From Arcobacteraceae bacterium (GTDB taxonomy: Bacteria; Campylobacterota; Campylobacteria; Campylobacterales; Arcobacteraceae), in contig JAOZJU010000002.1 in assembly GCA_029935705.1 (NCBI GenBank), positions 1 through 58,977 on the forward strand: DNA of 58,977 nucleotides, in the 5' to 3' direction. How positions within the stretch are numbered: position 1 is the stretch's first letter; each line of letters starts with the position of its first letter. The notes beneath the pieces were generated by a model. It was not told the origin of the DNA. It made no database searches and saw only the letters and a list, made by a program, of their open reading frames with translations. Positions 38,836 through 41,848 of this stretch are shown here, one piece after another. Made by a program: the position numbers and the translations under genes.

Positions 38836-38878
38836 AAAACTGTTTACTAAGTGGGTTTATAAACTATTTGACAGTTTT
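38836..38878 (-). terminator. Terminator-like hairpin after the rhodanese gene
   Basis: AAAACTGT (38836-38843) and ACAGTTTT (38871-38878) form an 8-base stem with a 27-base loop that itself contains the palindrome GTTTATAAAC. On the minus strand the stem begins in the last codons of the rhodanese gene and is followed by AACTTTTTT. Confidence 0.5.
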
Positions 38879-39262
38879 TTTGCCCTTATCAATCCAACCG
38901 TAGTTTATGCCTCCGTCTAACTCTTGGACATTTGTGTATCCATTTTCGTTCAAAAATCTACCTACTGCTTTTGTCCTATTTGCATGAGCACATACCAATA
39001 CAAATGGAGTATCTTTGGTTTTTACTATTTTTGTAAATTTTGCCATCCATTTTTGGATATCATATGCACCTTTGCTGTCAAAAAATGTAAGCTTGTGACT
39101 ACCTTTTATAGTGCCATATTGTTTAAATTCGTCAGCTCTTCTTATGTCTATGATAGCTATTTTGCCATCTTTTACTATCTGTTCTACATCGCTTGTACTT
39201 ATCGTTTTAAATTGCGCCATTAGTGATACTCCTATCATCATAATAAAAATTATTTTTTTCAT
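38864..39262 (-). CDS. Periplasmic rhodanese-like protein
   Basis: 132 residues with a signal-like N-terminus (IIFIMMIGVSLMA). A single rhodanese domain has AIIDIRRADEFKQYGTIKGS and the active-site loop C91-AHANRT. It probably handles sulfane sulfur in the periplasm. The start overlaps the DUF302 gene by four bases. It is the last gene of the unit that begins at 39944. Confidence 0.88.
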   Translation of the reverse strand: MKKIIFIMMIGVSLMAQFKTISTSDVEQIVKDGKIAIIDIRRADEFKQYGTIKGSHKLTFFDSKGAYDIQKWMAKFTKIVKTKDTPFVLVCAHANRTKAVGRFLNENGYTNVQELDGGINYGWIDKGKKTVK

Positions 39263-39684
39263 TTTGTCGCTCCTTTTATCATATTGTTTATTTTGTTTGA
39301 TATACTATCTAATATCACACAATTTTTTACTTTATAACTATTTTTAAGATCACTATATTTGTCATATTTTACTATAACTTCATCATCTAAATTTTCATAT
39401 ATCATAACTTTTTGCGGTAAAGCATATGCGACCTTGCTGTCGTGCATCATCACTCTTGCAGTATCTTTTGGGTTGTCAAATATCACTACAACTGAGTTGT
39501 TGCTGTATGCACCTTTTGTTTTTGCATTTTTTTTGTGATCTATCGTGGCATATATTGTATAGCCATTTTTTTTGATAGATTGTTTTATATTTTTCACGGT
39601 TTTTTCAAACTTAAAACTGCTTTTAAGTTCAACTGCATGGATAGATAAAGCTATACATACTAAAACCAAAACTACTCTTTTCAT
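39259..39684 (-). CDS. DUF302-family exported protein
   Basis: 141 residues with a signal peptide (VVLVLVCIALSIHA). The DUF302 domain shows FEKTVKNIKQSIKKNGYTIYATIDH, then VVVIFDNPKDTARVMMHDSKVAYALPQKVMIYE. Biochemical function is unknown. Proteins of this family often sit near sulfur or heavy-metal genes. It is coupled to the rhodanese gene by a four-base overlap. Confidence 0.85.
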   Translation of the reverse strand: MKRVVLVLVCIALSIHAVELKSSFKFEKTVKNIKQSIKKNGYTIYATIDHKKNAKTKGAYSNNSVVVIFDNPKDTARVMMHDSKVAYALPQKVMIYENLDDEVIVKYDKYSDLKNSYKVKNCVILDSISNKINNMIKGATK

Positions 39685-39740: not shown

Positions 39741-39944
39741 TTATTTTTTATCTGCCGAGTCGCTCTTGCAAACAGTAGTTATGCCACATACTGGATACAA
39801 CGGACACCAACCTATAAGTGCAGTGCCTAGTGGTATGAGACCTATAAGTCCCAATAAACTTTGAGTATATACTCCATATCCAATGATCGCTAGACCCAAA
39901 ACTATCCTAATAGTTTTATCTGTTTTTCCTACATTTTTATTCAT
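39741..39944 (-). CDS. DUF2892 (YgaP-like) membrane protein
   Basis: 67 residues. MNKNVGKTDKTIRIVLGLAI is the DUF2892 opening. Two hydrophobic helices follow, with the family's GWCPLYPVCGI motif. In E. coli such a domain is fused to a rhodanese (YgaP); here the rhodanese is a separate gene two positions downstream. It is first in a unit driven by the promoter at 39971-40014. Ribosome binding site AAAAGGAAACAAA. Confidence 0.9.
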   Translation of the reverse strand: MNKNVGKTDKTIRIVLGLAIIGYGVYTQSLLGLIGLIPLGTALIGWCPLYPVCGITTVCKSDSADKK

Positions 39945-39970: not shown

Positions 39971-40014
39971 ATTATACCATAATATATCTTAAGTTGCTGT
40001 AACATATGTTACAG
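39971..40014 (-). promoter_or_regulatory. Predicted Crp/Fnr-type operator and promoter for DUF2892 unit
   Basis: The 18-base perfect palindrome CTGTAACATATGTTACAG (39997-40014) is centred 29.5 bases upstream of a TATAAT box (39976-39971). Counting TATAAT as -12 to -7, the centre falls at -41.5, the position used by Crp/Fnr activators that touch RNA polymerase directly. The same arrangement occurs at 41806-41848. Confidence 0.75.
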
Positions 40015-40063
40015 GGCACCTCTAAAAACCTCTATAACTCATAGAGGTTTTTAGAGGTGCCCT
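40013..40063. repeat. Palindromic repeat, copy B (complete)
   Basis: AGGGCACCTCTAAAAACCTC at one end is the exact complement of the other end, around the centre TATAACTCATA, making a near-perfect 51-base hairpin. It starts in the last two bases of the operator at 39997-40014 and ends within the stop codon of the Crp/Fnr gene, so it may also act as that gene's terminator. Confidence 0.85.
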
Positions 40064-40676
40064 ACAGTAACTCTATTTTGCCCCTATGAATTTTAAGCTT
40101 CTTTTTGTTTTCAAGTTCTTTTAAAACTCTGCTTACTACTACTCTTGAAGTGCTTAATTTTTCAGCTATTTGTTCATGAGTTGTAGTAATTGTGGTGCTA
40201 TTTTTGGACAACAAATATGCCAAAATCCTAGCATCTAATTTTTTATATTTTATATCTTCTATGAGGGTAGTAAGTGAATTAAACTTGATAGAAAAAAGTG
40301 AAAATATAAAATCCTGATATTTTTCATTTTGTTTCATAAGTTGTTTTGTTATATCATAAGATATCAAACATCCTTTTATATCTGTTGAGGCAGTAGCAGT
40401 GGCTATCACTTTTGTTTGTGATATAGCACTTGCTGTGTTTATGATACATTGCTCACCAGCACCTATCGTATATAACTCAATTGGTTCAATTTTGTCATCA
40501 CTATATATACTCAAACTTACATTACCATCAGATAAGAGTAAAATATCATTGCATATATCCTCTTGATAAAAAAGCACAGTGTTTTTATTTATAGATATTG
40601 GTCTTAAGTTTGATGACAAAAACTCTTTTTGTTTATCATCAAAAAAATCTACAAACGAAAACTTACTTATATCCAT
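40062..40676 (-). CDS. Crp/Fnr-family transcriptional regulator
   Basis: 204 residues. The N-terminal cyclic-nucleotide-binding-like domain (about 25-125) has VLFYQEDICNDILLLSDGNV and IGAGEQCIINTASAIS. A long dimer helix follows, and the C-terminal winged helix reads THEQIAEKLSTSRVVVSRVLKELE. Fnr's N-terminal cysteine cluster is absent; three Cys lie inside the sensor domain. It is the third gene of the DsrE-TlpA-regulator unit. The palindromes at 39997 and 41833 are its likely targets. Confidence 0.92.
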   Translation of the reverse strand: MDISKFSFVDFFDDKQKEFLSSNLRPISINKNTVLFYQEDICNDILLLSDGNVSLSIYSDDKIEPIELYTIGAGEQCIINTASAISQTKVIATATASTDIKGCLISYDITKQLMKQNEKYQDFIFSLFSIKFNSLTTLIEDIKYKKLDARILAYLLSKNSTTITTTHEQIAEKLSTSRVVVSRVLKELENKKKLKIHRGKIELL

Positions 40677-40677
40677 A

Positions 40678-41196
40678 CTATTTTTTTAACCTGTTTATCA
40701 AAGATACGGCCTCACCTACAGATAGATGAAAGTTACTAAATCTTATGATACCTTGTTTATCTACTATGATAGTCCAAGGTGTTCCACCTGTTTGGTAGTT
40801 ACTCATAAACTTTGACCTTAAACCATTTACACCGCTATGACCTACTGGCATAGTTAGTTTGTATTTTTTGACTATCTCTCTCGCTGCTTGTTCATCATTT
40901 GAGCTAAAACCTTCAAATGTAGTTTGTATCGCTACAAAAGCTACATCTTTGTCATCTTTGTATATCTTTGACAATCTGCTCAAAGTTGGAAATCCATGAC
41001 TGTGACAACCAGGACACCAACTTTGAAAACCATAGAGATATAGAACTTTGCCTTTAAAATCATCTATATCCAAATCTTTTTTATAAGTTTGTATCCAACT
41101 ATCAACTTCAAACTGTTTTGCTTTTTGTCCTATTAGCCTATCTGCACTATATACACTTGATACAACCAACAAAACCGATAAAAAAAACTTCAACAT
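40678..41196 (-). CDS. Periplasmic TlpA/redoxin-like thiol-disulfide protein
   Basis: 172 residues with a signal peptide (FFLSVLLVVSSVYSA). The thioredoxin fold has active site C61-PG-C64 in GFQSWCPGCHSHGFPTL and the cis-Pro loop GGTPWTIIVDKQG. It probably reduces or exchanges disulfides in the periplasm. It ends one base before the regulator start. A strong hairpin and then AAAAAGGAGAAT precede its start. Confidence 0.9.
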   Translation of the reverse strand: MLKFFLSVLLVVSSVYSADRLIGQKAKQFEVDSWIQTYKKDLDIDDFKGKVLYLYGFQSWCPGCHSHGFPTLSRLSKIYKDDKDVAFVAIQTTFEGFSSNDEQAAREIVKKYKLTMPVGHSGVNGLRSKFMSNYQTGGTPWTIIVDKQGIIRFSNFHLSVGEAVSLINRLKK

Positions 41197-41210
41197 ATAT
41201 TCTCCTTTTT

Positions 41211-41235
41211 TGTTATAGGGAAAATCCCTATAACA
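41211..41235 (-). promoter_or_regulatory. Perfect hairpin between DsrE-like and TlpA-like genes
   Basis: TGTTATAGGGA-AAA-TCCCTATAACA, an 11-base perfect stem with a 3-base loop, ends a few bases before the ribosome binding site of the TlpA-like gene. There is no T run after it on the minus strand. It may protect or separate the mRNA segments rather than end transcription. Confidence 0.55.
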
Positions 41236-41277
41236 TATTATCTAAAAATAATAAATCTACTAATTAATCAGAGTGTT

Positions 41278-41709
41278 CTAATACTCAAAAGTTTTAGCAT
41301 CTTTATCTAACATAGCTTTTAAAATTGGAGGTGGCATAGATATTTTTGCACCTTTTATGAAGTCGCTCTGTTTTAGACCATTTACTTTTGCACACATACC
41401 ACACACAAGTATATCTGCACCTGATTCAACCATCTTTTTCAATATCTCTTTGATAGTTTTTTTCTTTGCTGGAAACTTTGGAGCCCAACCATCTTTTGTA
41501 ACATATTTTAACGAGTTGGCACCTATAACTACAGTTACTTTTGCACCCTCTTTAGATGCACCCCAAGCTAAAGCTGTCCCAAGTCCAGATGACATCAAAT
41601 CTCCACTAGCAAGTGTTACTACCATCTTTTTCCCACTAAATGGTTTTGCAATACCGGCAACCCCAACAATCAACAACATAACTATCGCTATTTTTAAAAT
41701 ATTTTTCAT
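41278..41709 (-). CDS. DsrE-like exported or membrane-anchored protein
   Basis: 143 residues from ATG 41709, chosen because GGATAAAT precedes it; an upstream ATG at 41757 would begin inside a repeat. An N-terminal helix (ILKIAIVMLLIVGVAGIA) is followed by a DsrE/YchN-type fold: VVTLASGDLMSSGLGTALAWG, VTVVIGANSLKYV, and the C-terminal ADILVCGMCAKVNGL with Cys103 and Cys106 in CGMC. DsrE proteins carry sulfur as persulfide. It is first in the DsrE-TlpA-regulator unit. Confidence 0.82.
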   Translation of the reverse strand: MKNILKIAIVMLLIVGVAGIAKPFSGKKMVVTLASGDLMSSGLGTALAWGASKEGAKVTVVIGANSLKYVTKDGWAPKFPAKKKTIKEILKKMVESGADILVCGMCAKVNGLKQSDFIKGAKISMPPPILKAMLDKDAKTFEY

Positions 41710-41758
41710 ATTTATCCTTTTTTTTGTTTTCACACTTATTTTAGGCAAAATTGCCACT

Positions 41759-41790
41759 TCTATGAACTATAGAGTTTTTAGAGGTGCCCT
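41759..41790. repeat. Palindromic repeat, copy C (partial)
   Basis: About 32 bases, TCTATGAACTATAGAGTTTT then TAGAGGTGCCCT, match one half and the centre of copy B; the other arm is lost or replaced by GGCAAAATTGCC. It lies in the predicted leader of the DsrE-like gene, between its promoter and start codon. Confidence 0.7.
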
Positions 41791-41805
41791 TTAGTATGAA
41801 ATAGC

Positions 41806-41848
41806 ATTATAACATATTTTGTTATGTTTGTCTGTAACTTGTGTTACA
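41806..41848 (-). promoter_or_regulatory. Predicted Crp/Fnr-type operator and promoter for DsrE unit
   Basis: TGTAACTTGTGTTACA (41833-41848) is centred 29.5 bases upstream of TATAAT (41811-41806), exactly the spacing seen at 39971-40014. The half sites TGTAAC and GTTACA are identical to those of the other operator; only the 4-base centre differs. Confidence 0.72.

Follow-up and report, generated by a model that had tools for sequence, protein, structure and literature searches.

The window analysed here is the whole 58,977-nucleotide stretch comprising positions 1 to 58,977 of contig JAOZJU010000002.1 of an Arcobacteraceae bacterium [GenBank assembly GCA_029935705.1]. It includes a module of two transcription units, both on the minus strand. 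Unit 1, dsrE-redoxin-crp, begins with a gene predicting a DsrE/DsrF-like protein with a signal-like N-terminal stretch (positions 41278 to 41709; PF02635), which is missing from the sister genomes G037, G038 and G039. It is followed by a gene for an exported redoxin, a TlpA-ResA-like thioredoxin-fold protein with a WCPGC motif (40678 to 41196; PF08534, ResA-like), and by crp (40062 to 40676), which predicts a 204 aa Crp/Fnr-type regulator. Unit 2 is composed of ygaP-TM (39741 to 39944; PF11127), the predicted core conserved target, which encodes a small YgaP-type membrane protein (YgaP-like_TM, annotated as DUF2892 in relatives), a gene for a DUF302 protein with an exported-like N terminus (39259 to 39684; PF03625), and a gene for a single-domain rhodanese with a signal-like N terminus (38864 to 39262; PF00581).

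Each unit is preceded by an exact match to the palindrome TGTAAC-N4-GTTACA. Upstream of unit 1 it is located at 41833 to 41848, reading TGTAACTTGTGTTACA on the forward strand and TGTAACACAAGTTACA on the transcribed minus strand, with a TATAAT -10 hexamer at 41806 to 41811 (minus strand) and TG ahead of it at -15/-14. Upstream of unit 2 it is TGTAACATATGTTACA at 39998 to 40013, with TATAAT at 39971 to 39976, again on the minus strand. The distance from the operator centre to the first base of TATAAT is 29.5 bases at both units, and if transcription starts approximately 7 bases past the -10 hexamer, as predicted, both operators would be centred near -41.5. A first-pass annotation made from the sequence had reported these palindromes, their spacing and a regulator gene lying between them, and all three were reproduced, crp being the last gene of unit 1. 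Its description of the operators as identical holds for the half sites and the spacing but not for the central four bases, which are ATAT in one and ACAA in the other.

The genome-wide scan proposed in that annotation was conducted on the whole genome (1,278,886 bases, 99.6% complete) and found the exact palindrome only twice, at the two sites in the module, both with promoter spacing. Allowing one mismatch raises the count to 10 sites, compared with 2 for a reversed control pattern; of the eight additional sites, a single one has a -10 hexamer at 29.5 bases. This site (L010; G000:C67:37353), with TACAAT, is directly upstream of a gene for a DUF255 thioredoxin-domain protein. The orthologue of this gene in sister genome G037 has a weaker variant of the site, CGTAACATATATTACA, with TATTAT at 29.5 bases, and G038, a sister genome with no match to the regulator, has no DUF255 match either. 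A match upstream of psd (G000:C58), which has two mismatches and is followed by TACAAT at 29.5 bases, was considered as a fourth target and set aside because it is not kept in two regulator-bearing sister species and a partial match precedes psd in a regulator-free sister species.

Orthologues of the regulator (41–75% identity) occur in Arcobacteraceae and in other families of the order, including Sulfurospirillaceae and Sulfurimonas MAGs. In the tree, these orthologues and a small number of divergent members make up a single supported group (38 rows; 98/91) separate from the paralogues; the position of E. coli CRP, on a very long branch, was disregarded. The commonest gene companion of the orthologues is ygaP-TM, and all 29 ygaP-TM genes counted in regulator-bearing genomes (28 loci near the regulator and the G039 copy) are preceded by the site with a -10-like hexamer at 29.5 bases or, in several families, 30.5 bases. 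These sites match 10 to 12 of the 12 bases, and their centres lie 56 to 91 bases ahead of the start of the protein match. In G039, the site is retained although the ygaP-TM operon and the regulator are on separate contigs. In contrast, none of 20 ygaP-TM homologues (11 close and 9 remote) in same-family genomes that lack the regulator has the site, the best matches being 7 to 8 of 12 bases. A naive Fisher test of 29/29 against 0/20 gives p = 3.5e-14, a value computed over lineages that are not independent. Excluded from the 29 were L128, which has no site and a regulator outside the group, and a second copy in G037 (9 of 12 bases). This second copy (L187; G037:C20) adjoins a short fragment of the regulator gene and, with its degraded site, resembles a decaying duplicate.

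A loose pattern (two mismatches and TANNNT) applied to 104 genomes returned too many chance matches and was replaced by a strict operator-plus-minus-10 pattern, which was found in 27 of 31 regulator-bearing genomes versus 5 of 31 without the regulator; in these five, the matches fall within coding sequence. In G086 and G087, a TGTAAC site with a -10 hexamer precedes a cupin-crp unit, not a sulfur gene. In a sub-branch of the regulator (L109, L111, L112, L119 and L129), the gene is beside a ChrR-type cupin gene (Cupin_7 in L109) and/or a gene for a protein of ∼95 aa. The sites, their spacing and conservation, and their co-occurrence with the regulator are features of the sequences compared, and the two palindromes are almost certainly operators of the embedded Crp/Fnr protein. 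The regulon and class II geometry proposed in the first-pass annotation thus have strong comparative support in the predicted spacing, the sites in relatives and the co-occurrence with the regulator.

The predicted recognition helix, SRVVVSR, aligns with SRETVGR of E. coli CRP; it retains R180 and R185 and has Val in place of E181 (the regulator has R178 and V179, and V179 corresponds to CRP position 181). In CRP numbering, R180 is found in 37, V181 in 31 and R185 in 36 of the 38 group members. CRP E181V mutants move the preference from TGTGA towards TGTAA. The R-V-R helix, compared with R-E-R in E. coli CRP, fits a predicted preference for TGTAA over TGTGA; R178 would read the G of TGT, and V179 would pair with A:T where the Glu of CRP goes with G:C. 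Positions 180 and 181 are known to correlate with the contacted half-site bases in Crp/Fnr proteins (Rodionov et al., PMC1274295). E181 is present in every one of the 26 Campylobacterota paralogues and in four proteobacterial relatives, and most of the inspected putative sites of E181 relatives have a TGTGA- or GGTGA-type half. In Arcobacteraceae, TGTAACATTGCTCACA is located upstream of a two-gene unit with crp last that encodes E181 paralogues, and TGTGATTCCGTCACA, TGTGACTTTGTTACA, GGTGATCTTGTCACC and GGTGACTTAGTCACC precede plasmid-borne DUF2892 genes, with 21 bases from each palindrome to a -10-like hexamer identified by eye, which is poor in the Azospirillum case.

A strict rule for residue 181 is contradicted by two group members, L095 and L096, which have E181 and K185 yet retain TGTAAC sites, and the rule is therefore given as a tendency. 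No TGTAAC-type site was seen near the regulator in five members whose residue 181 is T, A or N, and the neighbours of four of them include the ∼95-residue protein family and/or cupin-like genes. Paralogous Arcobacteraceae regulators with E181 (L032, 2171–2710; L045, 2164–2702) are associated with TGTAACAT-NN-CTCACA sites and TATAGT at 29.5 bases, upstream of a unit that encodes the regulator together with a small exported protein; the latter contains GYDAVSYH and by eye is YHS-like.

The regulator has both domains of the Crp/Fnr superfamily, PF00027 (29.2 bits, cut-off 27.5) and PF13545 (34.3 bits, cut-off 27). Its only cysteines are C42, C77 and C103, none of which is near the N terminus, which argues against an FNR-type Fe-S oxygen sensor, where a cluster of cysteines at the N terminus and a fourth cysteine hold the Fe-S cluster. 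The GELGL...RS pocket stretch of E. coli CRP aligns with GEQCIINTASAISQTKV (GEQC...), which argues against a cAMP-CRP. It shares with E. coli CRP the class II geometry near -41.5 and the helix residues R180 and R185, but CRP has a TGTGA site, E181 and cAMP as ligand, as opposed to TGTAAC and Val here. The operator of HcpR2 from Clostridia, Thermotogales and Bacteroides, GTAACnnnnGTTAC (PMC1274295), is contained in both operators, and the FNR-type cysteine motif is missing in HcpR2 as it is here. However, HcpR2 has Pro at 181 and hcp as a target, whereas the present regulator has Val at 181 and is encoded in a genome without Hcp. NssR of Campylobacter jejuni is likewise a Crp/Fnr protein from the same phylum with an N4-spacer palindrome, but it has A180/Q181, reads TTAAC (PMC1274295) and has a globin target, in contrast to TGTAAC, R/V and sulfur/thiol targets here; neither TTAAC-N4-GTTAA with A180/Q181 nor globin targets (searched as PF00042) were found. 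By these tests on sequence and gene content, the regulator is therefore not NssR, HcpR2, FNR or cAMP-CRP, and looks like an autoregulated class II Crp/Fnr activator.

Both C42 and C77 are present in all 38 group members. Among the relatives counted, C77 is invariant (68 of 68), 23 of the 26 paralogues have C42, and both residues align with cysteines of PDB 3dv8. A conserved cysteine pair is necessary, though not sufficient, for a persulfide-responsive regulator. An AlphaFold model built with six sequences has a mean pLDDT of 74.6, falling to <50 at residues 79–91, and hence no claim is made on the distance between the cysteines. That C42 and C77 carry out sensing has a little under an even chance; the conserved cysteines could equally perform disulfide, metal or cluster chemistry.

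The predicted targets are of a sulfur/thiol type, namely the rhodanese, the DsrE-family protein, the redoxin, DUF302, YgaP-TM and DUF255, of which YgaP-TM, DUF302 and DUF255 have no settled function, limiting the sulfur reading. Regulators ∼26–31% identical to this one are encoded directly beside the YgaP-type membrane gene, DUF2892, on plasmids of Azospirillum, Thiothrix, Paracoccus and Pseudosulfitobacter, pairs known from annotation only. These differ in having E181, TGTGA/GGTGA half sites and a 5-base centre, and C42 is missing in 2 of the 4. In Pseudosulfitobacter, DUF2892 is followed by genes for YeeE/YedE, DUF6691, an MBL-fold hydrolase and a BLH-phosphatase/pyridine-nucleotide oxidoreductase fusion, a run that by analogy resembles known sulfide-detoxification operons. 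YgaV, which responds to sulfide, controls ygaP in E. coli (PMC9774250). BigR, SqrR and YgaV are ArsR-type sulfide/persulfide-responsive repressors of rhodanese/YgaP and YeeE-PDO-type operons (PMC7315123, PMC9774250); they resemble the present regulator in functional setting and in the two-cysteine sensing proposed, but combine an ArsR fold with repression, as opposed to a Crp/Fnr fold with predicted activation. Because of the sulfur/thiol targets, the loci of relatives, the link between YgaV and ygaP, and the conserved C42 and C77, a thiol-based sensor of reactive sulfur is favoured. Provided that both sites are operators of the regulator, reactive sulfur is a reasonably probable signal, a view that rests on the neighbouring genes.

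The proposed mechanism is that the Crp/Fnr protein would bind two class II activator sites centred near -41.5, activating its own operon, dsrE-redoxin-crp, as well as the ygaP-TM/DUF302/rhodanese operon and the distant DUF255 thioredoxin-domain gene. The inducer would most likely be sulfide, persulfide or polysulfide, sensed via C42/C77 in a sensor domain that no longer resembles the cAMP pocket, and the targets would then move or detoxify sulfane sulfur. In this scheme, we infer binding, activation, the signal and what the cysteines do; as a whole, it is the best explanation and somewhat likely to be correct.

The sites could instead be chance palindromes, or belong to another Crp/Fnr regulator in the cell, and the five regulator-free genomes with the strict pattern and the unconserved match upstream of psd show that such patterns do arise by chance. 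Evidence to the contrary is the fixed spacing, the presence of sites at ygaP-TM in every counted case with the regulator and in none without it, and the retention of the site in G039, where operon and regulator are not neighbours. This explanation is highly improbable.

Two further alternatives keep the regulator and its regulon but change the signal. The first-pass annotation had suggested a link to nitric oxide from the resemblance of the half site to that of NssR, and the signal could be nitrosative stress or nitric oxide itself, in the manner of Campylobacter NssR and the Nss proteins in Wolinella. The similarity to TTAAC-N4-GTTAA in a Crp/Fnr protein from the same phylum (PMC1274295), the use of the similar site GTAACnnnnGTTAC by HcpR2, the regulator of hcp, and the membership of a DUF2892 gene in the NnrR regulon of Bradyrhizobium (PMC6710368) are all in keeping with this suggestion. 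However, TGTAAC keeps a G that TTAAC lacks, the helix has R-V where NssR has A-Q, and no enzyme known to handle NO is among the predicted targets. The genome encodes neither Hcp (PF03063) nor a PF00042 globin, the search for the latter not extending to truncated globins (PF01152). Helix residues, site and gene content thus rule against a nitric oxide regulon, and the suggestion is not upheld, nitric oxide being a quite unlikely signal. A general thiol or redox stress, such as disulfide, oxygen or peroxide, or else a metal or small-molecule ligand, would suit the thioredoxin-fold targets, redoxin and DUF255, and the cysteines, which could form a disulfide or bind a metal, but the rhodanese and DsrE targets and the operon of the proteobacterial relative that resembles sulfide detoxification indicate sulfane sulfur, and such a signal is considered rather unlikely.

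In a broader and more tentative form, to which we give somewhat less than an even chance, the reactive-sulfur reading would describe an apparently unnamed, widespread Crp/Fnr branch in Campylobacterota, with relatives in Proteobacteria, that detects persulfide or polysulfide via its conserved cysteines and turns on genes for sulfane sulfur, those of the YgaP type included, its operator specificity being tuned by the residue at CRP position 181. In function, such a branch would be the activating equivalent of the ArsR-type sensors BigR, SqrR and YgaV. The phylum lives on sulfur compounds, and orthologues of FNR, ArcA and NarP are not known in it, according to a review of regulation in Campylobacterota (PMC6682613). 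With its sharply defined site, conserved core target and residue-level account of specificity, the regulator is a testable candidate for sensing reactive sulfur there, and the poorly understood YgaP-type membrane proteins would gain a regulatory partner. No description of this regulon was found in the literature, a search of open-access papers only that does not in itself prove novelty.

Further features were seen near the paralogous regulators and within the module. DsrE-like genes, recognised by eye, may also adjoin paralogous regulators (L223, L224 and L226). In L215 to L218, from another family of the order (f3), a gene of ∼793 aa lies divergently to that of a paralogous regulator; its product starts RRNFLKG and by eye has a Tat-like leader and the look of an oxidoreductase. 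A perfect 23-bp inverted repeat with a 5-nt loop (40013 to 40063, minus strand) is located at the 3′-end of crp and abuts the operator of unit 2, with no T run downstream. The 15-mer TTTTTAGAGGTGCCC has exactly three copies in the genome, all in the module, one in each arm of this hairpin and one in the leader of unit 1 (41775 to 41789). The copy in the leader might base-pair with the distal hairpin on the same transcript, or be what remains of a repeat. A perfect 11-bp hairpin, TGTTATAGGGAAAATCCCTATAACA, is found between dsrE and the redoxin gene at 41211 to 41235, where it directly precedes the ribosome-binding site of the latter; no T run accompanies it on the transcribed strand.
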